Positions 1-23,189 of a stretch of 38,487 nucleotides of DNA are shown here, one piece after another. The DNA comes from Candidatus Nomurabacteria bacterium (GTDB lineage Bacteria > Patescibacteriota > Minisyncoccia > Phycocordibacterales > UBA9973). The notes beneath the pieces were generated by a model. It searched no databases, had not been told where the DNA came from, and saw nothing but the letters and a program-made list of their open reading frames with translations. The number at the start of each line of letters is the position of its first letter. The first letter of the stretch is position 1. The position numbers and the translations under genes are program-made. The DNA lies in the NCBI GenBank assembly GCA_003155695.1, contig PMDZ01000008.1:1-38487 (forward strand). The letters are read 5' to 3'.

Positions 1-3000
1 ATCATCAATCAATATGACCCGACTGTCTTTCCTCGTCTCCTTGGTGTTGAGAAAGCGATTGAGAATTTAAATAATCGTATAAATAATAATACAAATGACA
101 ACTTTAGTTCCCGTCAGATTGATGCTATCTATGACAGCTTAGGGAATACAATCGATAGTTCTTCAAGAAGAATCACCGAAGGTGGAACATTGAATGACTC
201 AATCCTAAACAGTCCAATTCTTAATAATGCCACTATCACCGGGACACTATCAGGTAATGCTGGCACTGTCACCAACGGAGTCTATACCTCTCGCACCATA
301 AATGGTCATCCTTTATCTTCTGACGTTACAGTTACCGCCTCCGATGTTAACCTCGGTAATGTCACCAATGAAAGCAAAGCAACGATGTTCACTTCACCAA
401 CATTTACTGGAACGGTCGAAATTACAAATCTTCCTACCGTGAATGGCGGAACTTTAACGACTGCGCTCAATCTTTCGGGAACTAATACCGGGGATGATGC
501 CGTCAACTCTCTCTACTCCGGTCTTGCTTCTTCAAAACAAGATGCATTGAATGGCACAGGTTTTGTAAAAATATCAGGAACAACTATTTCCTATGATAAT
601 TCAACTTATCTGACTACCAATTCTGCTTCCGGTACTTATCTTCCTTTAGCTGGAGGAACAATGACAGGAGGAATAACTAATTCTACTTCAATTAATCCTC
701 TTACAACTTTAGCTGAATCATGGATTGGTCCGTCTTCGACGAATGGTATTTATTTCAAAGATGGAAACGTCGGAATTACTACAACAACACCTGCGCAAAA
801 ACTCGATGTTGCCGGTAATGTAAATATTTCTTCTGGTTCTGCGTATATGTACAACGGAGTAAATATAATAAGAGCTCTGACAGCATCAAGCAACTATTTT
901 TTTGGTAATGGAGGTAACCTGACCATGACGGGTATTTATAATACTGCAGTTGGTAAATCTGCTTTAATTTCCAATACTTCAGGTTATCAAAACGTTGCTG
1001 TTGGAGGTGGCTCTTTATACGACAATACAACTGGTTATCTTAATGTGGGAATTGGTATTAATGTTTTAACCTATAATGATGTAGGTACTTATAATACAGG
1101 GATAGGGGCTAATTCACTTTATACAAATTCTGGAGGAAGTTATAACACCGCAGTAGGTACACATGCACTTTATTACAATACTACAGGAAGTTATAACACC
1201 GCAGTAGGTAATTATTCTTTAACTCATAATGTTACAGGTATTAATAATACAGCGATGGGTTATTATTCCTTTTTAGATTTAAATGAAGCAACAGGCACAG
1301 GAAATAATACTGCAATCGGTTACAACACAGGACGAGGTATAACTACCGGCATTAACAATACAATTATCGGAGCCAATGTAACTGGACTGGCGGCTGGTTT
1401 GTCGAACAGAATAATTATCGCCGATGGATCGGGGAACCAGAGGATATATGTAGACAATACCGGCCTCGTCGGCATCGGCACCACCACTCCAGCCTCACAT
1501 CTACAAATCGGAGGTAATCTCTCCGCCTCCTCTTGGACTACCACAGGTATAGCATTTGATTCAAATGCTGCCACTTACACAGATACAAGTACAGCAGCTG
1601 CAGGAACAGTCGCAGTCAGAACAGCCAACAGTTTCGGTGCCCCAACATTTGCCAGTACTAATGCTATTACTGTCACTGATGCCTTCTCCCTCTATGTTCC
1701 GAAACCAATTGCTGGAGCCAACACCACCATCACCCGCGCCAACTCCGCTTACTTTGAGGGGAATGTGGGGATTGGGACGACGAGTCCGGGGCGGTTACTG
1801 GAGGTCAATGGGATATCGCGTTTTGATGATAGAATATATCTTACCTCTAGTGAAAATGTCTCTTTGGCAGGGTCAGTATCAGATATTAAATTAAACGGAT
1901 ATAACACTGCTGATTCTGCCACCTACACCATTATGACACTTGTGAGGGGAAGTGGGGCTGGAAATACCGGCAACGTCGGCATCGGCACCACCACCCCAGC
2001 CTCACATCTACAAATCGGAGGTAATCTCTCCGCCTCCTCTTGGACTACCACCGGTATAGCTTTTGATTCAAACGCTGCCACTTACACAGATACAAGTACA
2101 GCAGCTGCAGGAACAGTTGCAGTCCGAACAGCCAACAGTTTCGGTGCTCCAACATTTGCCAGTACTAATGCTATTACTGTCACCGATGCCTTCTCCCTCT
2201 ATGTCCCGAAACCAATTGCTGGAGCCAACACCACCATCACAAATGCCAACTCTGCTTACTTTGAGGGGAATGTGGGGATTGGGACGACGAGCCCGGCAAC
2301 TTCATTACATATTGCAAGTACTAATAAAAATATTGGAGGTAATGTTTTTGGGAATGTGTACGTAGCAACAACTGATTCAGAAGCAATAGATAAAGGTGGT
2401 TCTATTTCATTTGGTGGAGTTTATACAGGAACTACCACAACACATTGGGCTGGTATTGCTGGTAAAAAAGAAAATAGTACTAACGGTCAATATGGCGGAT
2501 ATCTTAATTTCTATACAAGAGCAAATGGATTAGCTCCAGCCGAAGTGATGAGAATAACAAGTGCTGGCAACGTCGGCATTGGAACAACTACACCGACAGC
2601 TAATCTGCAAGTTGCACAAGTTACTGCAGGAGCAGGTACAGTGACTATCACCGGCAATACAACTTGTACCGGAACAGGAACACAATTCACAAATACATTC
2701 AAAGTCGGAGATAACATAATCATAACTGCAACATCTGAAACTCGGGCTATTAGTGCAATAGCTTCAGATACAGTTATGACAATTGCTTCGGCAACTAACA
2801 CTGTTGATTCAGCATACACACTTACTGGGGGAACAAGGTTTAGTGTATTGGGAAATGGTAATGTTGGAATCGGGACGACGACGCCGGGAAACAAATTAAC
2901 AGTTACTGGCGGTCATATAAATATTTCTGACGGTAGCTATGGTTACTTAATAGCTAATGATACTGCTCTAAGCAGAAATTCGGGGAATCTTAAATATGGA

Positions 3001-4416
3001 ACTGCGAGTAGCTATACTTCTCAAAGTTTTTTTATTTCCGGTGTGGAAAAAATGACAATTAATAGTTCTGGTAATTTAGGAGTTGGCACCACCACCCCAG
3101 CCTCACATCTACAAATCGGAGGTAATCTCTCCGCCTCCTCTTGGACTACCACCGGTATAGCATTTGATTCAAACGCTGCCACTTACACAGATACAAGTAC
3201 AGCAGCTGCAGGAACAGTTGCAGTCCGAACTGCCAACAGTTTCGGTGCCCCAACATTTGCCAGTACCAATGCTATTACTGTCACTGATGCCTTCTCCCTC
3301 TATGTCCCGAAACCAATTGCTGGAGCCAACACCACCATCACCCGTGCCAACTCTGCTTACTTTGAGGGAAATGTGGGGATTGGGACGACGACGCCGGGAA
3401 ACAAATTAACAGTTACTGGCGGTCATATAAATATTTCTGATGCCAGTTATGGTTACTTATTAGCTAATGATACTGCTCTAATCAGAAATGCGGGAAATCT
3501 TAAATATGGAACTTCGAGTAACTATACTTCTCAAAGTTTTTTCATTTCCGGTGTAGAAAAAATGACAATTAATAGTTCTGGTAATTTAGGAATTGGCACC
3601 ACCACCCCGACCACTTTCAAACTTCAAGTCGCTGGAGATGTCGGACCGGATGCCAACAATTCATACAATCTAGGTGCTGCCGGTTCCAACTGGGGTTGTC
3701 TATACTACAATGGTGGAACGCAAGGGACATGTGCGTCCGACCAAAGATTGAAAACAAATATCTCTGATTTGACATTTGGGACCGATCCACTTTCACAAAT
3801 TGCCAATCTCCGACCTCGTTCTTTCTCTTTCACCAGTGACCCAAATGCAAGTATGTACAACGGTCTCATTGCTCAAGAAGTGGAACAATTCGCTCCGGAA
3901 TTAGTCATCACCAACACCGATGGCTACAAAGCCATTAAGTATGGTGATATCCAGTGGTTAACCCTAGAAGCCATTAAGCAAATGAATCTAAAACTGGGCG
4001 ACCTCTCATCCCTTGATACAACATCCGACTCATCCCTCGGCTCACTCATTAAGAACTTCTTGGCGGATGTGGGGAATGGGATAGAGAAAATATTTGTCAG
4101 AGAAGTTAATACAGATACTCTATGTGTTTCGGATAGCACCGGAGCAAAGACTTGTATAAATAAAGCTGAGCTTGATAGTTTGCTTGCAGGCGCTGGAGCT
4201 TCAACATTGACACCAACACCAGTTCCACCAACACCAGATACAACACCAACACCAGAGTCACCATTGATACCACCTGTGGATGAAATTCCAACTTGTACAG
4301 ATACACAAACTTTGGTAGATAATGTTTGTGTAGACAAAATACCTACCTCTTCTCAAGATTCCAGTGAGACTCCGACAGAAACAGCACCAGTTGCCACTCC
4401 GGACGCAACACAATAA
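1..4416 (+). CDS. Giant repetitive surface/fibre-like protein with YadA-like head repeats, GNVGIGTTTP beta repeats and C-terminal peptidase S74 (intramolecular chaperone) domain; 5'-truncated by the window
   Basis: The frame is open from base 1 (IINQYDPTVFPRLLGVEKAIENLNNRI...), so the TTG at 190 is not the true start. Repeated G(N)VGIGTTTP motifs; NTAVG-type repeats ~925-1390; S74 motif CASDQRLKTNISDL...LIAQEVEQFAPELV; Pro/Thr-rich tail. Confidence 0.9.
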   Translation: MINQYDPTVFPRLLGVEKAIENLNNRINNNTNDNFSSRQIDAIYDSLGNTIDSSSRRITEGGTLNDSILNSPILNNATITGTLSGNAGTVTNGVYTSRTINGHPLSSDVTVTASDVNLGNVTNESKATMFTSPTFTGTVEITNLPTVNGGTLTTALNLSGTNTGDDAVNSLYSGLASSKQDALNGTGFVKISGTTISYDNSTYLTTNSASGTYLPLAGGTMTGGITNSTSINPLTTLAESWIGPSSTNGIYFKDGNVGITTTTPAQKLDVAGNVNISSGSAYMYNGVNIIRALTASSNYFFGNGGNLTMTGIYNTAVGKSALISNTSGYQNVAVGGGSLYDNTTGYLNVGIGINVLTYNDVGTYNTGIGANSLYTNSGGSYNTAVGTHALYYNTTGSYNTAVGNYSLTHNVTGINNTAMGYYSFLDLNEATGTGNNTAIGYNTGRGITTGINNTIIGANVTGLAAGLSNRIIIADGSGNQRIYVDNTGLVGIGTTTPASHLQIGGNLSASSWTTTGIAFDSNAATYTDTSTAAAGTVAVRTANSFGAPTFASTNAITVTDAFSLYVPKPIAGANTTITRANSAYFEGNVGIGTTSPGRLLEVNGISRFDDRIYLTSSENVSLAGSVSDIKLNGYNTADSATYTIMTLVRGSGAGNTGNVGIGTTTPASHLQIGGNLSASSWTTTGIAFDSNAATYTDTSTAAAGTVAVRTANSFGAPTFASTNAITVTDAFSLYVPKPIAGANTTITNANSAYFEGNVGIGTTSPATSLHIASTNKNIGGNVFGNVYVATTDSEAIDKGGSISFGGVYTGTTTTHWAGIAGKKENSTNGQYGGYLNFYTRANGLAPAEVMRITSAGNVGIGTTTPTANLQVAQVTAGAGTVTITGNTTCTGTGTQFTNTFKVGDNIIITATSETRAISAIASDTVMTIASATNTVDSAYTLTGGTRFSVLGNGNVGIGTTTPGNKLTVTGGHINISDGSYGYLIANDTALSRNSGNLKYGTASSYTSQSFFISGVEKMTINSSGNLGVGTTTPASHLQIGGNLSASSWTTTGIAFDSNAATYTDTSTAAAGTVAVRTANSFGAPTFASTNAITVTDAFSLYVPKPIAGANTTITRANSAYFEGNVGIGTTTPGNKLTVTGGHINISDASYGYLLANDTALIRNAGNLKYGTSSNYTSQSFFISGVEKMTINSSGNLGIGTTTPTTFKLQVAGDVGPDANNSYNLGAAGSNWGCLYYNGGTQGTCASDQRLKTNISDLTFGTDPLSQIANLRPRSFSFTSDPNASMYNGLIAQEVEQFAPELVITNTDGYKAIKYGDIQWLTLEAIKQMNLKLGDLSSLDTTSDSSLGSLIKNFLADVGNGIEKIFVREVNTDTLCVSDSTGAKTCINKAELDSLLAGAGASTLTPTPVPPTPDTTPTPESPLIPPVDEIPTCTDTQTLVDNVCVDKIPTSSQDSSETPTETAPVATPDATQ
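1468..1790 (+). repeat. Long intragenic repeat copy 1 (about 107 codons)
   Basis: Encodes VGIGTTTPASHLQIGGNLSASSWTTTGIAFDSN...SAYFEGNVGIGTTSPG; near-identical DNA at +507 and +1608. Confidence 0.93.
1975..2297 (+). repeat. Long intragenic repeat copy 2
   Basis: Near-identical to 1468-1790 by eye, in-frame offset 507. Confidence 0.93.
2869..3098 (+). repeat. Second intragenic repeat family, copy A (GNKLTVTGGHINISD...)
   Basis: Near-identical DNA recurs at +510 (3379-3608). Confidence 0.9.
3076..3398 (+). repeat. Long intragenic repeat copy 3
   Basis: Near-identical to 1468-1790 by eye, in-frame offset 1608. Confidence 0.93.
3379..3608 (+). repeat. Second intragenic repeat family, copy B
   Basis: Offset 510 from 2869-3098. 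Confidence 0.9.
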
Positions 4417-4418
4417 AA

Positions 4419-4967
4419 TTATTTTTTAATAGAAGTCATAAATTCTTTTTTTGTTTCTTCATCGACTTTATCGGTGACGATAATCATCATTTCGGTTGTC
4501 AGGCCCAAATCTTTTTTTATGTTCGTGAAAAGGTGCTCGTATGGGTAAATAGAAATCCAGACGGAATTTTTGATACAGATGAATCCGGCTTTCTTGAGCA
4601 GATAACGGAGAGCCTCCCGTTCATTTTTTCTTTCTTCAGGAAGGTCAAGGATAATGATTCTCCAATAACCGTCCCAATTGTTTGAGACGAGGGCAGTGTC
4701 ATCGTCTAGGACATTGCTGTTTAGACGCTTCTTGCCTTCGTCTGATAAGCGAAAGTATGGTTGATAATCCGATTGGAAGCACTCTATAAGGCCCATAGAT
4801 GCAAGGTTTTTGACGGAACGAGATATAGCATATTCCGAGGTGTTTTTAACGTCATGAGGCAGTTTTAAACTATTTTCAACCTGATTTTTAAGCGTTTCCA
4901 AAGAAACGGCTTGTTTTCCGGCCAAAGTTTTGAATATTGCCTTTTGAATTGAAGGTTTTTTCTTCAT
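4419..4967 (-). CDS. PaaX-like transcriptional regulator (winged helix + Cas2-like fold)
   Basis: N-terminal HTH-like region, then WRIIILDLPEERKNEREALRYLLKKAGFICIKNSVWISIYPYEHL...MMIIVTDKV, typical of the PaaX central Cas2-like domain; converges on the S74 gene with a 2-bp gap. Confidence 0.75.
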   Translation of the reverse strand: MKKKPSIQKAIFKTLAGKQAVSLETLKNQVENSLKLPHDVKNTSEYAISRSVKNLASMGLIECFQSDYQPYFRLSDEGKKRLNSNVLDDDTALVSNNWDGYWRIIILDLPEERKNEREALRYLLKKAGFICIKNSVWISIYPYEHLFTNIKKDLGLTTEMMIIVTDKVDEETKKEFMTSIKK

Positions 4968-9550: not shown

Positions 9551-10936
9551 ATGACTAAACACTCAATTACTTCCAGAAAACTTTGGAAGTTAGGAATTAA
9601 TGATTTTAACACCCAGTATTTTGATTTCAATAAAGAAGGAGATTTAATAATTAAAGAAGGTCACAACATCTATAACGTTCGATACTTGGCCGAGAAATTC
9701 GGGACACCGCTCGAAATATTGATGCCTTTTGCCATTGAAGAAAGGTTGGAAGACTTCCTCGACTTGGCCACAGCTTTGTCAAAAAAGGTTGGTTTTAAAG
9801 GCAAATTCTTCTATCACTACCCGATGAAGGTCAACCAAAGCAAGGAAGTTGTTATGTCGGTTGTCGGTGAAAGTGCCCATCTCGAGACGTCTTCGTATAA
9901 CGAACTCTGGATGATAAAGAAAATGCTCGAACAAGAAACTTTCAATCCGAATATCCGTATTCTTTGCTCGGGACCCAAAACTGACAAATATATAAATCTC
10001 ATTGATGATCTTCAACATAAAGGAGTGAAAATTTTTCCTCTAATCGAGGGACCGAACGAATTGAAGTTTCTCCAGTATTCGAAATATGATGTCGGCATCC
10101 GGCTCGACGTTCCGGTCAAGACAAATTCCCGTTGGAATAAGCCGATTGACCGTTTTGGTTTTTCAGCAAAAGAAATTCTCAAAATGAGCTCATTCAAAAA
10201 TTTGAAAATTCTTCACTATCATATCGGGTCACAGATTGAAAGACTTTCGGATATTCTGGTTCCGATAAAATACGCCCTCGATGTTTACTTTAAGCTGAAA
10301 GAAAAGAATCCATCGCTTGATACACTTGATATCGGAGGTGGTATGCCTATTCCTTATATGAGGACCAAGGGCTATCCGGTTAACAAAATAATGGAAAAGA
10401 TTTTTCGGCTAATAAAAAAGGAATCCGAAAAAAGAGGAGTCCCGCATCCGAACATTGTTTGTGAGTGGGGACGGTATATTGTGGCTCCGGCTCAGATTAC
10501 GGTTTTTAAAGTCATTGATACGAAAGCTATTACTCATAAAGCAAGTCCGGCCAAGAAGTGGTATGTCATTGACGGTAGCTTCATGAATGATCTTCTCGAT
10601 ACTTGGGCTATCGAGCAGAAGTGGGCCATGTCTTCGGTCAACAATAAAAGAGATGGAAACTTGAACGAGGTATGGCTAGCCGGTTCTTCCTGTGACTCTG
10701 ATGATATCTACAAAGGGAAAAACGGAGTAGTTACTTTGCCGGATTATAATTCGAACAATGGCGATACTGAACCGATGTATTTGGTTGTTTATGATACAGG
10801 AGCATATCAGGATTCATTGGCGGCCAAGCACTGCATGCTTTCTTCCCCGATGAAAGTTGTTGTTGAAAATGGGCATATTGTTGTGGCTCGCAAAAGGGAA
10901 AGCCCCGACGATGTCGGGAAAAACTTCGGTTGGTAG
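9551..10936 (+). CDS. speA: Arginine decarboxylase, SpeA-like, PLP fold type III, short form (461 aa)
   Basis: FFYHYPMKVNQ PLP-Lys motif; GGGMPIPY; GSSCDSDDIY; YDTGAYQDSLA. Confidence 0.88.
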   Translation: MTKHSITSRKLWKLGINDFNTQYFDFNKEGDLIIKEGHNIYNVRYLAEKFGTPLEILMPFAIEERLEDFLDLATALSKKVGFKGKFFYHYPMKVNQSKEVVMSVVGESAHLETSSYNELWMIKKMLEQETFNPNIRILCSGPKTDKYINLIDDLQHKGVKIFPLIEGPNELKFLQYSKYDVGIRLDVPVKTNSRWNKPIDRFGFSAKEILKMSSFKNLKILHYHIGSQIERLSDILVPIKYALDVYFKLKEKNPSLDTLDIGGGMPIPYMRTKGYPVNKIMEKIFRLIKKESEKRGVPHPNIVCEWGRYIVAPAQITVFKVIDTKAITHKASPAKKWYVIDGSFMNDLLDTWAIEQKWAMSSVNNKRDGNLNEVWLAGSSCDSDDIYKGKNGVVTLPDYNSNNGDTEPMYLVVYDTGAYQDSLAAKHCMLSSPMKVVVENGHIVVARKRESPDDVGKNFGW

Positions 10937-11107
10937 AAACTAAAGAGATGGTTATAGATATAGAACTTACTTTAAATAGGTTTGGTTTTGGAAAGATGAG
11001 CGAAAACAAATTTCAGTTCTTTTGTTTTAGATTTTCTAAATGGAAAATACCGGGCAAGTATTCGATTTCATTTTAAATAAACTGGAAAGTTAAAGAAAAA
11101 TAGTATT

Positions 11108-12196
11108 TTATTTTATATATCCTTCTTTAACCAGAAGTTCGGCGTTTAGGATGCCGCCACCGGCGGCGCCACGAACTGTGTTGTGGGAAAGGGCGACGAA
11201 TTTGTAGTCGAATATCGGACATTCGCGGAGTCGGCCGACAGTTACAGCCATGCCTTTATCTGTATCGCGGTCTTTTTTGGGTTGTGGACGGTTTTCTTCT
11301 TCTTTGTAAATAATTGGAAATGTTGGTGCGAAAGGAAGTTTCAATTCTTGTGGTATTGATTTGAATTCATTCCAAATTTTAATTATTTCTTCTTTTTTGG
11401 GCTTCTTATCTTTGAATAAAATGTTTATAGAAGCAAGGTGTCCGTCAGTAACTGGGACTCGGGTACAAGTAGCCGATATTTTAATATCTTTATTTTTAAC
11501 AAATTTATTATTTACAATTTTACCTAAAATTTTAAGTGGTTCTTCCTCTGTTTTTTCTTCTTCACCACCGATGAACGGGATGACATTATCAATCATATCT
11601 AGACTCGCAACTCCGGGATATCCGGCACCGGAAACTGCCTGAAGAGTCGTAATCATTATCTTTTTAACAGGATAACCTGCTTTCATAAGAGCGTATACCG
11701 GAGTAATGTAACTTTGAAGACTACAGTTTGGTTTTACAACAATAAATCCCTTATCCCAGCCATGATTTTTTTGTTGGATTTTAATTATTTTTAAATGTTC
11801 AGAATTTATTTCCGGGATAAGCATCGGCACGTCATCTGTCCATCTGTTAGCTGATGCATTAGAAACGACAGGCATTCCCAATTTTGCATATTTTTCTTCA
11901 ATTTCTTTTATTAAATTTTTATCGCTTATTTCAAAAGCCGAAAATACAAAGTCGCATTTCTTGGCGGCATTCTCGACGTTTTCCACTTCCTCGACAATAA
12001 TTTTCTTAACGCCTTCCGGAATTGGTGTGTTCATATGCCAACGATTTTTCACAGACTCAGCATATGTAAGTCCAGCAGAATTTTTTGACGCGGCCAAATA
12101 TACCACCTTAAACCAAGGGTGATTCTCGAGTAAACTGATATATTTTTGCCCGACCATACCCGTTGCTCCCAATATTCCAACTTTAAATTTTTTCAT
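11108..12196 (-). CDS. asd: Aspartate-semialdehyde dehydrogenase (archaeal/fungal-type)
   Basis: GILGATGMVGQKYISLL; catalytic PNCSLQSY; QAVSGAGYPGVASLDMIDNVIPFIGGEEEKTEEE. Confidence 0.95.
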   Translation of the reverse strand: MKKFKVGILGATGMVGQKYISLLENHPWFKVVYLAASKNSAGLTYAESVKNRWHMNTPIPEGVKKIIVEEVENVENAAKKCDFVFSAFEISDKNLIKEIEEKYAKLGMPVVSNASANRWTDDVPMLIPEINSEHLKIIKIQQKNHGWDKGFIVVKPNCSLQSYITPVYALMKAGYPVKKIMITTLQAVSGAGYPGVASLDMIDNVIPFIGGEEEKTEEEPLKILGKIVNNKFVKNKDIKISATCTRVPVTDGHLASINILFKDKKPKKEEIIKIWNEFKSIPQELKLPFAPTFPIIYKEEENRPQPKKDRDTDKGMAVTVGRLRECPIFDYKFVALSHNTVRGAAGGGILNAELLVKEGYIK

Positions 12197-12223
12197 ATTG
12201 AATTTAGCGGAGTAGAAATGTTG

Positions 12224-12276
12224 TTTTCTTCATGGTCTGGCTCCTCGTCCTCCCTCATCCGAGGACCTGAAGAAAA
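12224..12276 (-). other. Intercistronic RNA hairpin candidate between lysC and asd
   Basis: Minus-strand TTTTCTTCA-GGT-CCTCG-(12-nt purine-rich loop)-CGAGG-AGCCAG-ACC-A-TGAAGAAAA; 9+3+5 bp pairing. Confidence 0.6.
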
Positions 12277-12297
12277 TAATATTTCGACGTAGCTTTA

Positions 12298-13647
12298 CTA
12301 TTTAATAAATTTCTTATACAAAGACCTGATAATGTTTTCAATTTTATCTGTCCTTATAACAGCCTCAAGGCGAGTGCAGTTTTTATAAAGGAAAGCACTG
12401 ATTTCCAAATCGGTTTTCAATTTGATTAACAAACTGTTGAAATCGTTGACGTATTGGACATTGAAGTTACCAACCAAAAAGACCATAGAGACAGGTTGCA
12501 TTTCAACACTGAAGACTTTCTTTTTTAATTCTTCGAAGACCTTGTTTGACGAACCGTTATTATTATCGGCAACGATTTGCAAGCTATAACGGGTATTGCT
12601 GATTAGAATGACATCAACTTTATTTTTGACGAAAGCTTGACTGACAATAGAGAGAAGCTCGTTACCTTTAATAATTTCATCGGTAATTATATATAATGTT
12701 AAATTTTTCTTATAGCTGACTATCTTTGCGCCTTTCTTTATACTTTTCTCTTCTCCGACAGTTGTTTTTAATTTGGGGTTAGCCAAAGATACTATCTCGA
12801 CGTTCGTTTTGAACAACTTTGCATATTGAATCGCTTTATCGTGAATTATTTTTCCGGCTTCTTCAGATTCCTGATAACTAACGAAGGGAATCGTTTTGGC
12901 TTCGGGGACAATTTTCGGGTCGGCCGACAATACACCACCGACATCTTTCCAGAGAATTACTTTTTCAGCTTTTGTTGCGGCACCGACAAAGCAGGCAGTA
13001 GTGTCTGTGCCACCGCGTCCAAGAGTTGTCGTCTCGCCATTTTTGGTTATACCGGTAAAGCCGGCAATGATAGGAATCTCTTTTATTCCCGACAATTTTT
13101 GTCTCAGGTTCTTTTCCGATAATTTATAATCAATATTGGCATTCCTGAAGTTATTATCGGTGACAATCGAAATTTCCTCAGCCAGCAATCTTCGGGTAGG
13201 AATGCTCATAAGATTAAAATAAAAGCTCAAAATTGTTGCCGAGAATTTTTCGCCGTAGGAAACGATTTTATCTTCCAGCATATCAAGCGATAAAACAGCA
13301 TTCAAATCAGTCTCCAATTCAAAAAATAATTTTTCCAATTCAATATGAATTTCCTCTCGCCATTCTTTGTTGAACCCAATGTCGGTTATTATCTTGCTAT
13401 GCGTTTTTTTGAGTTCAATTATAAAATTTTCTACCGAGAGACTAATTTCATTTTTTTTCAAGGGGGATTCGTTAAGTTTTGCCAAAAATGAAACCAAACT
13501 ATCGGTTATTCCTGGCATCGCCGAAACCACAACAATCGGAGAGTATCCACTTGCCAGTTGCTCTTTTAAACGTTTGGCGATTATCGGAATCAATTCCTTT
13601 TTGAGTATTCCTCCACCGAATTTGTTAACAATAATTTTTTTAGACAT
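12298..13647 (-). CDS. lysC: Aspartate kinase with C-terminal ACT region
   Basis: IIVNKFGGGILKK; LGRGGTDTTACFVGAATKAEKVILWKDVGGVLSADPKIVPEA. Confidence 0.9.
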   Translation of the reverse strand: MSKKIIVNKFGGGILKKELIPIIAKRLKEQLASGYSPIVVVSAMPGITDSLVSFLAKLNESPLKKNEISLSVENFIIELKKTHSKIITDIGFNKEWREEIHIELEKLFFELETDLNAVLSLDMLEDKIVSYGEKFSATILSFYFNLMSIPTRRLLAEEISIVTDNNFRNANIDYKLSEKNLRQKLSGIKEIPIIAGFTGITKNGETTTLGRGGTDTTACFVGAATKAEKVILWKDVGGVLSADPKIVPEAKTIPFVSYQESEEAGKIIHDKAIQYAKLFKTNVEIVSLANPKLKTTVGEEKSIKKGAKIVSYKKNLTLYIITDEIIKGNELLSIVSQAFVKNKVDVILISNTRYSLQIVADNNNGSSNKVFEELKKKVFSVEMQPVSMVFLVGNFNVQYVNDFNSLLIKLKTDLEISAFLYKNCTRLEAVIRTDKIENIIRSLYKKFIK

Positions 13648-13657
13648 AAGCAGTTTG

Positions 13658-13685
13658 ATTATATTATATATAGTATATAAATCAA
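13658..13685 (-). promoter_or_regulatory. lysC promoter (minus strand)
   Basis: Minus strand TTGATT - 16 bp - TATAAT, 10 nt before the ATG. Confidence 0.6.
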
Positions 13686-13696
13686 GCGCATATTTA

Positions 13697-13725
13697 TTGA
13701 CTTATAAGGGTACCAATAGTAAACT
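13697..13725 (+). promoter_or_regulatory. Promoter of the carboxyspermidine dehydrogenase gene
   Basis: TTGACT - 17 bp - TAAACT, 6 nt before the ATG at 13732. Confidence 0.55.
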
Positions 13726-13731
13726 TGAATC

Positions 13732-14976
13732 ATGTCAAAAATACTTGTTATTGGGTGCGGAAATGTCGGAAGTGTCGGTTTGCATAAGATGGCTCAATTT
13801 AGGGATGTATTTTCGGAGATTCATGTTGTCGGTAGAACTCCGGCTAAATGTGAGACTGTTCGGCTGTCTGTTCTGAAAAGATTCAAAACAAATTTGCATA
13901 TTCATATCGGCGATGTCGGGAAAGGTGACTTTTTTCTTAAATTGTTGAGAGAAGTAAAACCAAAATTGGTTGTAAACTGGGGAAGCCCTTATGACAATTT
14001 GGTTGTCATGGATGCTTGTCTAGAATATGGAGTGAACTATATCGATACAGCCTGTTACGAACATCCTGACAAATACGGTTTTTCATACAAATTGCAATTG
14101 GCTAAAAATGAGGCATACAAAAAGAAAAATTTATTGGCAATTCTTGGTTGTGGTTTTGACCCGGGAGTTTCTAATATCTTCTCGGCTTATGCGCGCGATT
14201 ATCTTTTCGATAAGATTGAAACGATTGATATCCTGGACTGCAACGGCGGTTCGAAAGATGAGAAAATAAAATTTGCTCCAAACTTTGATCCGGAAATAAA
14301 TCTTCGAGAGCTCATTTTACCCATTAAATTCTGGGAGAAAGGCAAATGGCAGAAAAGGATGAAGCTTATCGATGATGATGCGCCATTTTTTGAATTTAAT
14401 TTTCCTGAAGCCGGCAAATTTACGCCTTACTTAATGTACCATGAAGAACTCGAAACTATACCTACTCATATAAAGAGTCTTAAACGAATTAGCTTTTGGA
14501 TGACATTCTCAAAGAATTACCTGACATATTTACGAGTACTATATAATGTCGGACTGACTCGTATTGACCCGATAGATTTTAATGGTGAGAAAATTGTTCC
14601 GGTTAAATTCCTGAAGGCTATACTTCCTAAAGGCGAAGACTTTAATAGCGGTTATAAAGGTAAAACAAATATCGGCAATATCATTGTCGGAACAAAAGGC
14701 GGAAAAAGGAAAATTGTCTATATTTATAATGTTTGCGATCATGCCGAAGCGTTTAAAGAAACCGGAGGGAATGCTATCGGCTATACGACAGCCATTCCAA
14801 CAGTGACTTGTGCCAAGCTGGTGCTCGAAGGTAAATGGAGCGGTATCGGAGTCAAAAATACCGAGGACGAGTCACTTGATTCTAAAATATTCTTAAACGA
14901 AATGTCGAAAACCGGATTGACCTGGAAAGTGAAAATATTGAAAAATTTACCTTCAGCACTAAAAAAGAATTATTAA
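13732..14976 (+). CDS. Carboxy(nor)spermidine dehydrogenase (saccharopine dehydrogenase-like)
   Basis: KILVIGCGNVGSVGLHKMAQ Rossmann motif; GCGFDPGVSNIFSAYARD; immediately followed by nspC. Confidence 0.9.
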   Translation: MSKILVIGCGNVGSVGLHKMAQFRDVFSEIHVVGRTPAKCETVRLSVLKRFKTNLHIHIGDVGKGDFFLKLLREVKPKLVVNWGSPYDNLVVMDACLEYGVNYIDTACYEHPDKYGFSYKLQLAKNEAYKKKNLLAILGCGFDPGVSNIFSAYARDYLFDKIETIDILDCNGGSKDEKIKFAPNFDPEINLRELILPIKFWEKGKWQKRMKLIDDDAPFFEFNFPEAGKFTPYLMYHEELETIPTHIKSLKRISFWMTFSKNYLTYLRVLYNVGLTRIDPIDFNGEKIVPVKFLKAILPKGEDFNSGYKGKTNIGNIIVGTKGGKRKIVYIYNVCDHAEAFKETGGNAIGYTTAIPTVTCAKLVLEGKWSGIGVKNTEDESLDSKIFLNEMSKTGLTWKVKILKNLPSALKKNY

Positions 14977-16158
14977 ATGTCAAAAAATAATGAAAATATT
15001 TTTATAGAACCTTGGATAGATGAGGAAGGCTGGAATGCCGATAATTTTTCCGAAATTGAGACTCCGTGTTATGTTGTCAGTAAAAGTCATTTGGAAAAAA
15101 ATTTGAGAATTCTTTCTCAAGTCGAGAAAGATACCGGCTGTCATGTTTTGATGGCGCTCAAAGGTTTTTCGATGTTTTCGATGTTTCCCATGGCGCGGAA
15201 ATATATTTCAGGAACTGAAGCCAGTTCGGTGAATGAAGCACGACTTGGTTATGAAGAATTCGGTAAAGAAGTCCACGTCTTTTCGCCGTCCTACACGGAA
15301 GACAATATCAAAGAATATTTGAAGTACGCTAATCATTTGGTTTTCAATTCTTTCTCTCAGTGGAATAAATTTAAGGATATATGTCATAATAAAGTTTCTT
15401 GCGGAATCAGGGTTAACGTTGAACATCAAGAAGTTGAAAATCCGATGTATGACCCAAGTAGTTCCAACTCTCATTTTGGAGTGACAAAATCAAATTTCGA
15501 AGTTGATAACTTGGAAGGAATAGAAGGATTTCACTTTCATAATCTTTGTGAAAATGGTGCTGATGCACTCGAAAGAACACTTAAAGTTTTTGAGGAAAAA
15601 TTTGGTGAATTTTTGCCTCAAATGAAATGGGTAAATTTCGGTGGCGGTCACCATATTACCAGACGTGATTATGATTTGAATTTGTTAACCAAAATTATCA
15701 CAGATTTTAAAAAAAAATATCCTCATCTGGAAATTTACCTTGAGCCAGGTGAAGCTATAGCCTTAAATGCCGGAGTACTAATAGGTAGTGTTGTAGATAT
15801 TTTTTCAAATACAGCAGTTCTTAATGTCTCCGCAACCTGTCATATGCCCGATGTGCTTGAAATGCCTTATTTACCGACAATTCTGGGAGCTAAGACGGCT
15901 ATCGATGGTAGTGACAATGTTTATCGTTTAGTTGGGCCAAGTTGTTTGACCGGAGATGTTATCGGCAAATATTCTTTTTCAAAACCGCTTGTCATAGGAC
16001 AGAAAATTATTTTCCTCAATATGGCTATATACACAATGGTAAAAAATAATACTTTCAACGGAGTTAATCTTTCGGACATTGTAATTCTTGATAAAAACGG
16101 TAAGATTAAAATTATCAAAAAATTCGGTTATAAAGATTTTAAAAATAGGTTGTCATGA
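14977..16158 (+). CDS. nspC: Carboxynorspermidine/carboxyspermidine decarboxylase
   Basis: TPCYVVSKSHLEKNLRIL; ALKGFSMFSMFPMARKYISGTEASSVNEARLG; HFHNLCENGAD; VNFGGGHHITRRDY. Confidence 0.95.
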   Translation: MSKNNENIFIEPWIDEEGWNADNFSEIETPCYVVSKSHLEKNLRILSQVEKDTGCHVLMALKGFSMFSMFPMARKYISGTEASSVNEARLGYEEFGKEVHVFSPSYTEDNIKEYLKYANHLVFNSFSQWNKFKDICHNKVSCGIRVNVEHQEVENPMYDPSSSNSHFGVTKSNFEVDNLEGIEGFHFHNLCENGADALERTLKVFEEKFGEFLPQMKWVNFGGGHHITRRDYDLNLLTKIITDFKKKYPHLEIYLEPGEAIALNAGVLIGSVVDIFSNTAVLNVSATCHMPDVLEMPYLPTILGAKTAIDGSDNVYRLVGPSCLTGDVIGKYSFSKPLVIGQKIIFLNMAIYTMVKNNTFNGVNLSDIVILDKNGKIKIIKKFGYKDFKNRLS

Positions 16159-17198
16159 AAAATAAGATTCTTGAAGAAAAAATAAAAAATTTCAATCCAA
16201 ACGAAAATGGTCTGGCTTACCACGGCATATTTGGACTGCCTTTTGAAGCAGAAGAATCAAGAATGGTTCTTGTCCCGGTTCCTTGGGAAGCGACTGTTTC
16301 TTATGGGACGGGAACTGCAGAAGGGCCAAAGGCTATACTCGATGCATCCCAACAGATAGACCTTCATGACCATCTTTATCCTAATGGCTGGAAAAATGGT
16401 ATTGCCATGGCTGATATTCCGGCCAGCATTTTTTTCAAGAGCAAACAAACGAGAGTAAAAACGGAAAAGTATTTGGAAAAATTATATTACGGTAAACAAA
16501 TGGATAAAGAATTATTGAATGAAATAAATACTGATTGCTTGGAACTAAAAAATTATGTAGAAGAAACAACTAAAAAACTACTGAAAGAAGGGAAAATAGT
16601 CGGAGTTGTAGGAGGGGACCATAGCGTTCCACTTGGGTATTATGAAGCGCTATCAAAAAAACATAAGGATTTCGGTATTCTTCAAATAGATGCTCACGCC
16701 GACATGAGAGAAGCATACCAAGGTTTGGAATATTCTCATGCTTCAATTTTTTTTAATGCCTTAAAGATTAAAAATATCTCTAGAATTGTTTCTGTCGGAG
16801 TAAGAGATTTCAGTATTGAGGAACTTGAATTAATTACTAAAGAAAAAAAACGCATATCCCTTTTTACCGATTATGAAATAAAGAAAGCTATTTTCAACGG
16901 TGGGACATGGGCCAAAGAATGTGACAAAATAGTTAAAGAACTTCCTAAAGAAGTACATATTTCTTTCGACATTGACGGTTTAAACCCCAACCTTTGCCCC
17001 AATACTGGAGCCCCGGTTCATGGGGGCTTTACGATAGATGAAGTGGTATATCTTTTTGAAAAAATTATCGCCAAAGGTAAAAAAATAATCGGCTTTGATT
17101 TGTGTGAAGTTGCCAAGGGAGTAGGTGAGTGGGACGGCAACGTCGGTTCACGCGTTCTCTATAAACTCTGTTTACTGACACTAAAAAGTAATAAATAA
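16155..17198 (+). CDS. speB: Agmatinase / ureohydrolase family
   Basis: GGDHSVPLG; IDAHADMREAY; SFDIDGLNPNLCPNTGAPVHGG; ATGA overlap with nspC. Confidence 0.92.
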   Translation: MKNKILEEKIKNFNPNENGLAYHGIFGLPFEAEESRMVLVPVPWEATVSYGTGTAEGPKAILDASQQIDLHDHLYPNGWKNGIAMADIPASIFFKSKQTRVKTEKYLEKLYYGKQMDKELLNEINTDCLELKNYVEETTKKLLKEGKIVGVVGGDHSVPLGYYEALSKKHKDFGILQIDAHADMREAYQGLEYSHASIFFNALKIKNISRIVSVGVRDFSIEELELITKEKKRISLFTDYEIKKAIFNGGTWAKECDKIVKELPKEVHISFDIDGLNPNLCPNTGAPVHGGFTIDEVVYLFEKIIAKGKKIIGFDLCEVAKGVGEWDGNVGSRVLYKLCLLTLKSNK

Positions 17199-17227: not shown

Positions 17228-18142
17228 ATGACATGGTTTTTTATCGCACTCGGAGCCCCATTTTTATGGGCTCTTGTAAATATTTCGGATAAATATCTGG
17301 TTGACAAATATTCCACTGGGCATCATGGTTCTGGCGGACTTGTTCTTTTTTCCAGCCTTATCGGCATTATTGTTTCAGGATTAATTGCTATATTTGTTAG
17401 CGGTGTTTGGAGTATCTCAATTTTAGATAAAATTTTACTTATCTTTGCAGGTTTTTTGACTATAATTTGGTTTATTACATATTTATATACTCTTGAAATA
17501 GAAGAAATCTCGGCTGTTGTGCCATGGTTTCTTATGATTCCAATCTTTGGGTATATTTTAGGATACTTCATTCTTGGAGAAACTTTAACGACTCATCAAT
17601 TGATTGGCTCTGCCATTACGATGCTTGGAGTGTTTTTTATCTCCATTGATTTTGTTGGTGAAAAAAGGAGAATAAAGATAAAACCTGCGTTGTATATGAT
17701 TTTTTCAAGTATGATGGTTGCGGTTGTCGGAGTTATTTTCAAATTTGTAACAATAGAAGGAAACTTTTGGGTTTCATCTTTTTGGGAATATTTAGGAATG
17801 GGAATCGTCGGAATTTTTATTTTTTTATTTATACCAAAATTTCGTAAAGAATTTATGTATATGAATAAAAAAGGAGGAATAAAAATATTTATACTGAATA
17901 TTGTTAGCGAATCAGTATCTACAATAGCTCATTTTCTTACAAATTTTGCGATACTTCTTGCTCCTGTTACAATGGTTTATCTTGTTGGAAGTTTTCAGCC
18001 AGCTATTTTGTTGTTCTTAACGATTATAGGAACTAAATTTTTCCCACATATTGTAGAAGAAAGTCTCCACCATAAAGTTTTGATCCCAAAAGCTATCGCC
18101 ATTATCATCATAATTGCCGGAAGTATATTCTTATTTATCTAA
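17228..18142 (+). CDS. EamA/DMT family membrane transporter
   Basis: About ten hydrophobic segments with a duplicated architecture; VPWFLMIPIFGYILGYFILGETLTTHQLIGSAITMLGVFFIS. Confidence 0.8.
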   Translation: MTWFFIALGAPFLWALVNISDKYLVDKYSTGHHGSGGLVLFSSLIGIIVSGLIAIFVSGVWSISILDKILLIFAGFLTIIWFITYLYTLEIEEISAVVPWFLMIPIFGYILGYFILGETLTTHQLIGSAITMLGVFFISIDFVGEKRRIKIKPALYMIFSSMMVAVVGVIFKFVTIEGNFWVSSFWEYLGMGIVGIFIFLFIPKFRKEFMYMNKKGGIKIFILNIVSESVSTIAHFLTNFAILLAPVTMVYLVGSFQPAILLFLTIIGTKFFPHIVEESLHHKVLIPKAIAIIIIIAGSIFLFI

Positions 18143-21164: not shown

Positions 21165-22376
21165 ATGAAACTACATGAATTAAATTTTGAAAATCCATTT
21201 TATTCGTCTATTTATTGTGAGCGACATGTTAATGACTCAAAAGGTCGCTTTAATGAGTACTCGGAAGTAAATCCTATTTATGATCCGCAAGGATCTATGT
21301 CTCAAATCCAAGTACCATTTACTTGGATTAAAAAAGAAAATCTCGAAGTTTATCAGAGTAACCCATCACTGGAACTCTTATTAGATGTTTGCAGAGATCA
21401 AGAATATAAATTCTTTTGGCATCCTGACACTATTCGTTCGGCTTTTAACATTAATGGCTATGCATCTATGCAACCAACGAGTTCTACTAGAACAATGCTT
21501 TCAATGGATTCTCTGGCTTATTATGTAAAAAAGGATTTGGATAAAAAACATTTTCGTTTCGTTCGAAGATTGAAAAGAAGCTCAGTAATTCATAGTATAG
21601 AAATTTGTAATGAATTACGAACATTAGTATTTCAATTACCATCTGATTCGACTTACAGTTTTTTACCAGAATCTCTTGGTCTTGTTATCCTTAATGGGCC
21701 TTATGAAGAATCTGGCGTTCTCTTTAGGGAAACGAAACCAGCATCTGCTTCTAAAGATAAAAGGATTATTATACCTTATCATTCATTGTATGCTGATGAT
21801 CCTAATGATTTAGAATCAAAACCATTATTGATTCAATTGTGTGAAAAAAATTCACCCTTTGATCCACTTGGTTTCTTTCTTGAACATATAGTTGGTTACA
21901 TTCAAGATGCTTGGGTATTACTAGTTACTAAATTGGGTTTGTTGCCCGAATTACACGGACAAAACTCTTTAATTGAAATCGATGAGAATTTCTTTCCTAC
22001 AAGAGTTATCCATCGTGACTTTCAGGGTACTTATAGTGATTCCGAAATTCGTAGATCTCTTAATTTGAATGTTTTTAAAAAACACATTGTAGGAGAGGAG
22101 TATGGGACATCTAAAGCGTCTCAATATAGTCATGTTTACGACGGAATGATTGGACGATACTTATTATCAAGACTTACAAAAACATTTTGTGCTTATTATA
22201 AAAGTTTTGATTATAAAACAGTTTCGAGTGAAATTTCCCGTCGTTTTCATTCAATTCCAAACAACATAACTGATATGTTTCCGATTACAACCTATAAATT
22301 TGGTAATTCTGCGACAGAACAAGAGGGTAATGATGTGATCTTAGTAGATACAAAAGAACTACCAGATTTTCGTTGA
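21165..22376 (+). CDS. Divergent IucA/IucC-family (NIS synthetase)-like protein
   Basis: FFWHPDTIRSAF; QPTSSTRTMLSMDSLAYYVKKDLDKKHFRFVRRLKRSSVIHSIEICNELR; LLPELHGQNSLIEIDENFFPTRVIHRDFQG resembles the (E)aHxQNtll..d..P.r...RDf.g motif. Confidence 0.55.
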   Translation: MKLHELNFENPFYSSIYCERHVNDSKGRFNEYSEVNPIYDPQGSMSQIQVPFTWIKKENLEVYQSNPSLELLLDVCRDQEYKFFWHPDTIRSAFNINGYASMQPTSSTRTMLSMDSLAYYVKKDLDKKHFRFVRRLKRSSVIHSIEICNELRTLVFQLPSDSTYSFLPESLGLVILNGPYEESGVLFRETKPASASKDKRIIIPYHSLYADDPNDLESKPLLIQLCEKNSPFDPLGFFLEHIVGYIQDAWVLLVTKLGLLPELHGQNSLIEIDENFFPTRVIHRDFQGTYSDSEIRRSLNLNVFKKHIVGEEYGTSKASQYSHVYDGMIGRYLLSRLTKTFCAYYKSFDYKTVSSEISRRFHSIPNNITDMFPITTYKFGNSATEQEGNDVILVDTKELPDFR

Positions 22377-22409: not shown

Positions 22410-23189
22410 ATGAAAGAAAAATTAAAGACATCTGATTTTGGTATGGGTTTGACGGAGCTGTATATCTATGAGTCTACAAGCAAGACCAATAAGGTAATCT
22501 TACTTTTAAAGGGTATATATGGATACCACTTTGAGCTTGATGATTTTAAAACGGACTTACTAGGTCTTAAATGGGACCAATCGTTCATTAGATATTTTCT
22601 TCCATATGCTCATGTGGTGTGTGTAAATACCTCAAGACTTGATGGTTATGATCAAAATATTTTTTCTCAAAGACAAGATTCATTTGAAGGAAAAGATTAT
22701 AGTCAGGAAATAGATGATATCAAAATTGCTTTTAATAGAGCTCTTAAATTACTTTCTAATAACGGCCTGACAAATCCTAAAATCCATCTAATGGGAAAAT
22801 CATTTGGAGGTACAGTTTTTTTAGGAATGCCTGAAGTCGTTCAAAAGTCTACTTCAATTTCTATGTTTGGTAGTGGTTGCGGTAGAGATGAAAATACAAA
22901 AAGGCCATTACTTAGAACCTTACCAGATGAAGAAATCTTACTCAAAACAATAAAGGATTACAGGGGACTTTTCTCTTTCTATCATGGAGAACTTGATGAA
23001 ATTGTACCTATAGAATCACAAGAAAAAATTGTAAAGGCTAGCGGAGCAAAATTGACGAGCTTTATTACCATAAAAGGTGCTGATCATGAGTTTGAAAAAA
23101 TGTATGGTAAAGAAAGTTTAGAACCAGGAACCTTGTTGAGAAAAATGCTACTAAATAATATTTTGTTTAGTGATAATATAAAATTGTAA
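22410..23189 (+). CDS. Alpha/beta hydrolase (serine esterase-like)
   Basis: Nucleophile elbow HLMGKSFGGTVFLG; acid YHGELDEIVPIES; His IKGADHEFEK. Confidence 0.75.
   Translation: MKEKLKTSDFGMGLTELYIYESTSKTNKVILLLKGIYGYHFELDDFKTDLLGLKWDQSFIRYFLPYAHVVCVNTSRLDGYDQNIFSQRQDSFEGKDYSQEIDDIKIAFNRALKLLSNNGLTNPKIHLMGKSFGGTVFLGMPEVVQKSTSISMFGSGCGRDENTKRPLLRTLPDEEILLKTIKDYRGLFSFYHGELDEIVPIESQEKIVKASGAKLTSFITIKGADHEFEKMYGKESLEPGTLLRKMLLNNILFSDNIKL

Follow-up and report, generated by a model that had tools for sequence, protein, structure and literature searches.

A predicted AdoMet-independent spermidine island with its own aspartate-semialdehyde supply in a CPR bacterium

Most amino-acid biosynthesis is missing from CPR and DPANN organisms. 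Why, then, does a CPR bacterium with a 773-kb genome keep aspartokinase and aspartate-semialdehyde dehydrogenase (Asd), and what do the polyamine-type genes beside them make? The stretch that we analyzed (the window; 38,487 nucleotides) is contig C12 of the source genome (G000), which is 95.7% complete. We consider it probable that these genes form a self-contained spermidine island that needs no AdoMet and in which putrescine is formed first. A short-form arginine decarboxylase (ADC) would convert imported arginine to agmatine, and a SpeB-type ureohydrolase would convert agmatine to putrescine. A private aspartokinase-Asd pair would turn aspartate into aspartate semialdehyde. A carboxyspermidine dehydrogenase (CASDH) homologue would then join putrescine and aspartate semialdehyde by reductive condensation, and a decarboxylase (CASDC) would convert the resulting carboxyspermidine to spermidine. 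If so, a bacterium with a tiny genome carries, side by side, the enzymes that lead from aspartate and imported arginine to spermidine, with a private aspartate-derived supply.

Layout and gene families of the island

An earlier note on this DNA had described six adjacent polyamine-related genes with nothing extraneous. We found exactly six ORFs from 9551 to 17198 and no other gene-size ORF between them. They do not form one operon. The speA-like gene (9551 to 10936, plus strand, 461 aa) stands alone upstream, and asd (11108 to 12196, 362 aa) and lysC (12298 to 13647, 449 aa) lie on the minus strand, divergent from casdh (13732 to 14976, 414 aa), casdc, or nspC (14977 to 16158, 393 aa), and a speB-like gene (16155 to 17198, 347 aa), all on the plus strand. 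Because the last three ORFs abut or share a 4-nt overlap, they probably form one operon. By ORF coordinates, lysC and casdh are separated by 84 bp (13648 to 13731), presumably the site of both promoters. Adjoining the cluster is an EamA-family permease gene (17228 to 18142, plus strand; Pfam EamA), which is kept in both congeners (59% in G224 and 40% in G088) and is a possible transporter for the spermidine pathway.

Synteny across related genomes had been proposed as a check, and the block proved syntenic with these two congeners from dnaK-dnaJ to a histidine kinase gene; on this ground we rejected contamination. We concluded that the gene island is real and is shared, except for a swap of SpeB, with one congener. 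Elsewhere in the window are genes for a 1408-aa protein with a Peptidase_S74 (endosialidase chaperone) domain (190 to 4416), a type usually found in phage tail or surface proteins, and for a PaaX-like/Cas2-like domain protein (4419 to 4967; Pfam PaaX_M).

Asd is of the archaeal/eukaryal type (PRK08664, 486 bits, cut-off 232; TIGR00978, 402 bits, also above cut-off). Aspartokinase scored 248 bits against TIGR00657 (cut-off 209), and a Pfam search found AA_kinase and no ACT domain in it. CASDC, of the carboxy(nor)spermidine decarboxylase family, passed its curated NCBIfam cut-off (TIGR01047, 472 bits versus 409); its best PDB match is 9eaf, the Clostridium leptum enzyme. The SpeB-like protein is a ureohydrolase (Pfam Arginase, 173 bits, cut-off 22) in which, judged by eye, the metal ligands are present. 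It falls short of the agmatinase cut-off (TIGR01230, 147 versus 174.3 bits), and its homologues in relatives are likewise just below it (L049, 163.1; L100, 174.1). We describe it as an agmatinase-family ureohydrolase and candidate agmatinase.

The SpeA-like protein is a short form without the long-form insertion, which is why it scored 178 bits, short of the cut-off of 369. Its best matches are biosynthetic ADCs (NF003763; PDB 3nzq and 3n2o), its alignment omits about 90 residues of E. coli ADC (392 to 482), and it carries the YPMKVNQ and CDSD motifs. In being ADC-like, of DAPDC size, and without the roughly 80- to 90-residue insertion, it matches the short alanine-racemase-fold (AR-fold) form already named ancestral ADC (PMC7857480). 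We concluded that it is this known form, with arginine as its predicted substrate. Short-form ADC occurs in about 14 of the 238 genomes of the class, some of which have no CASDH. At one locus (L154, in G023), it is found near a homospermidine-synthase-like saccharopine-dehydrogenase homologue; this is perhaps another triamine module that uses the short-form ADC.

All six families that one would expect for a complete triamine pathway independent of AdoMet and self-sufficient in aspartate semialdehyde are present, in keeping with the earlier note, and we infer their activities from sequence.

Consumers of aspartate semialdehyde

The earlier note had taken aspartokinase and Asd to be dedicated to polyamines rather than to lysine, threonine, or DAP. 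We found no DapA, homoserine dehydrogenase, or LysA in the source genome, which supports dedication. ADH synthase and SpeD family members were also absent from it. No AR-fold PLP decarboxylase was found in this genome beyond the cluster's two (SpeA and CASDC), and thus neither LysA nor an AR-fold ODC; since the genome is 95.7% complete, these absences are not absolute. With the searched-for clients absent, aspartokinase and Asd are left without a visible client except CASDH. As for the arginine with which the pathway would begin, no argininosuccinate synthase (ArgG) was found in the genome, so arginine must be imported. Synthesis of threonine, lysine, and arginine seems to be beyond the source bacterium.

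Few genomes of the class have Asd: it occurs in 9 of 238 when hits under ~25 bits are ignored (G000, G224, G055, G118, G225, G008, G112, G185, and G190). A consumer of aspartate semialdehyde can be identified in each of the nine: homoserine dehydrogenase in five (G008, G055, G112, G118, and G225), DapA in G185, and CASDH in two (the window genome and its congener G224). In the remaining carrier, G190, lysC-asd belongs to a shikimate operon, where the genes for ADH synthase and 3-dehydroquinate synthase II immediately precede it. The archaeal-type shikimate route starts from aspartate semialdehyde. Lysine, threonine, and DAP, the uses that the earlier note had listed, were therefore not the full set, since lysC-asd of G190 serves this route. 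As in the window, the pair lies beside a consumer, but the consumer there is ADH synthase (for aromatic amino acids) instead of CASDH. The G190 operon (L047:494-9595) comprises ADH synthase, 3-dehydroquinate synthase II, an AroD-AroE-AroK fusion, an AroA-AroC fusion, and lysC-asd at its end. The pairing of each Asd in the class with one identifiable consumer offers a rule for reading reduced genomes.

Asd is commoner in class genomes with CASDH (2 of 5) than in those without it (7 of 233; Fisher p = 0.012). A second, separate set comprised the 80 CASDH loci that best matched a pair of motifs. Of its nine CPR/DPANN loci, four have asd and lysC next to casdh, as does none of the 71 remaining loci (Fisher p = 8e-5); the four are from Paceibacterota (L049), Peregrinibacterium (L100), and Micrarchaeota (L051 and L058). 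Both p-values are too small because the tests ignore shared ancestry, and the recurrence of the linkage in distant groups is the stronger point. In two CPR relatives (L048 and L050), lysC-asd is found at a different genomic position, and no other aspartate-semialdehyde consumer was recognized near it. Counting against our reading, Asd was undetected in three CASDH-bearing genomes of another family that are 93 to 97% complete (G222, G161, and G196; loci L025, L027, and L029). In G161, murB directly follows casdh, with no casdc between them.

Some CPR and DPANN organisms thus keep aspartokinase and Asd apparently for one polyamine. If this is true, spermidine is something that they cannot reliably get from hosts.

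A divergent dehydrogenase clade

The CASDH homologue scored 323 bits against the carboxynorspermidine synthase model, below that model's cut-off of 800. Its only PDB matches (4ina, 8deb, 4rl6, and 8h4z) place it on the CASDH side and not with true saccharopine dehydrogenase; 8deb and the H. pylori entry are CASDHs, and 4ina and 4rl6 have been argued to be CASDHs (PMC10413350). It is 49% identical to 4ina and 44% identical to 8deb. The proposed catalytic residues are kept as E193 and H237-E238-E239 (E188 and H228-E230 in BfCASDH), corresponding to the published active-site motif of His-Glu-Glu plus Glu188 in BfCASDH numbering (PMC10413350).

In a tree of 88 CASDHs with sequences from the collection scan (its 80 best two-motif matches), the seven CPR CASDHs group as one clade (support, 100) whose stem measures 1.25 plus 0.62 changes per site. 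The stem was still 1.12 after S. meliloti, Paracoccus, and outgroup rows were added; unsampled CASDH lineages could break it. At about 30 positions that are near-invariant in the 81 other CASDHs, the CPR clade has a different, fixed state, and several of these positions are near the nicotinamide site. The partner CASDC, in contrast, is nested among ordinary CASDCs (stem, 0.12). The dehydrogenase mainly sets substrate choice, and the decarboxylase contributes little to specificity (PMC11999265). A divergent CASDH beside an ordinary CASDC therefore hints at a changed substrate, but the asymmetry could equally reflect an old subfamily that is unsampled. Given this divergence, the amine substrate is not readable from homology and may differ.

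We looked for diagnostic positions that separate agmatine-type from putrescine-type enzymes by cluster context and dropped them, as most differences tracked phylogeny. Four states of the CPR clade (G81, N86, D181, and V349 in BfCASDH numbering) also occur in the enzymes of S. meliloti and Paracoccus, which belong to the putrescine-using group. We did not use these four states as proof of putrescine use because they may be ancestral. A bolder proposal, which we regard as unlikely, is that the CPR dehydrogenases are a third functional type with a remodelled active site and a new amine preference. They would work with an ordinary decarboxylase and draw on a dedicated aspartokinase-Asd pair, and it is this pair that reduced-genome CPR and DPANN organisms would have acquired separately, as a plug-in supply for one product.

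Gene swaps in relatives and the order of steps

Congener G224 carries dnaK-dnaJ-speA-asd-lysC on contig C11 and lysC-casdh-casdc-AguB-AguA-eamA-HK on contig C39, with lysC split by the contig ends. Its CASDH is 85% identical to that of the window. AguB and AguA, both under their curated cut-offs, take the place of speB; this pair is a known two-enzyme route from agmatine to putrescine. In congener G088, dnaK-dnaJ-speA is followed by a deoxyhypusine-synthase/SpeY-like gene and then by speB-eamA-HK. The SpeY-like gene, a weak match (102 bits versus a cut-off of 450), replaces casdh, casdc, asd, and lysC between the same dnaJ-speA and speB. None of these four genes is at the G088 locus, and CASDH and Asd are absent from the whole genome. 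In another family, two otherwise similar clusters (casdh-casdc-murB-ADC-SpeY) have a short ADC in G222 and a pyruvoyl ADC (PdaD; 211 bits, above cut-off) in the same place in G196. The simplest account of all three swaps is that agmatine and putrescine are exchange points. The two swaps within one genus (SpeB versus AguA/AguB and the CASDH module versus SpeY) make the step order directly testable.

The ADC-AIH/NCPAH-CASDH-CASDC pathway of Campylobacter jejuni and Bacteroides likewise makes spermidine from arginine, independently of AdoMet and dependent on aspartate semialdehyde, with the same dehydrogenase and decarboxylase families. G224 has this type of gene set, but with a short ADC. The window differs from that pathway in its short-form ADC and SpeB-type ureohydrolase, in the aspartokinase and Asd of its own within the cluster, and in its separate CASDH clade. 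Published CPR polyamine clusters with pyruvoyl ADC/ODC, HSS, or SpeY show similar modular mixing of decarboxylases and triamine synthases (PMC10407285). The module in the window is instead casdh-casdc plus lysC-asd, a linkage that the available part of that paper does not mention. We concluded that the pathway variant is real, new, and well supported; the underlying pathway is already known.

The earlier note had the pathway run via carboxyspermidine, and this part of its claim holds less firmly than the gene content, because the same enzyme types can act in another order. In the carboxyaminopropylagmatine (CAPA) route, CASDH would join agmatine with aspartate semialdehyde, CASDC would yield N1-aminopropylagmatine, and the SpeB-like ureohydrolase would release spermidine last, with no need for free putrescine. 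The SpeB-like protein, which we read as the putrescine-forming enzyme, could also take this last step. The route is published for Synechocystis and shown for the Clostridium leptum, D. desulfuricans, and H. thermophila enzymes (PMC11999265). Those systems share four enzyme types with the window (ADC, CASDH-like, CASDC-like, and ureohydrolase); the window also has linked aspartate-semialdehyde supply genes, and its step order is not readable from sequence. Some CASDH/CASDC pairs prefer agmatine, ADC-encoding genomes tend toward CAPA, and ADC without ODC is the proposed genomic sign (PMC11999265). The window genome fits this, having an ADC, no other AR-fold decarboxylase except CASDC, and no SpeD-type pyruvoyl enzymes. 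Its CASDC is also closest among solved structures to that of C. leptum, a likeness that counts for little given the small part that the decarboxylase plays in specificity (PMC11999265). ADC genomes can also go via putrescine, since loss of N-carbamoylputrescine amidohydrolase severely lowers spermidine in B. thetaiotaomicron (PMC10135574). Under CAPA, AguB and AguA of G224 would have to act on aminopropylagmatine beside a CASDH that is closely similar to that of the window (85% identity), and in the CAPA source, as far as it was available, we found no mention of AguA/AguB for that route. The G088 arrangement of speA and speB around a synthase fits a putrescine-making pair, with the caveat that the SpeY-like call is weak. 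Congener synteny thus favors the carboxyspermidine order without proof. Because the swaps fit the exchange points and CAPA needs extra assumptions, we infer that putrescine probably comes first and regard CAPA as possible but doubtful.

Two further readings concern the product and the precursor. The altered positions in the CPR dehydrogenase, some of them near the nicotinamide site of the enzyme that mainly sets specificity (PMC11999265), would fit if it used another amine, such as 1,3-diaminopropane or a longer polyamine, and made norspermidine or a tetraamine. We think this very improbable: the neighboring speA and speB-type genes would supply agmatine or putrescine and not diaminopropane, and the catalytic residues are kept. 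The product of the island is most likely spermidine. It is similarly hard to credit that aspartokinase and Asd serve another pathway and were placed here by chance. The shikimate operon of G190 makes other clients possible, and our client searches covered homoserine dehydrogenase, DapA, and ADH synthase, a subset of the users of aspartate semialdehyde, which also include, e.g., diaminobutyrate aminotransferase; against this, these main clients are absent from the genome, and the linkage is seen again in separate lineages of CPR and DPANN. The spermidine island is most likely the only pathway that aspartokinase and Asd serve.

Between the histidine kinase gene and cysS, the window encodes a 403-aa protein that weakly matches IucA/IucC-FhuF (NIS siderophore synthetase; 21165 to 22376), followed by a 259-aa alpha/beta-hydrolase-like ORF (22410 to 23189). 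NIS siderophores often have polyamine backbones. In G224 and G088, the same two flanks are adjacent, without the pair.
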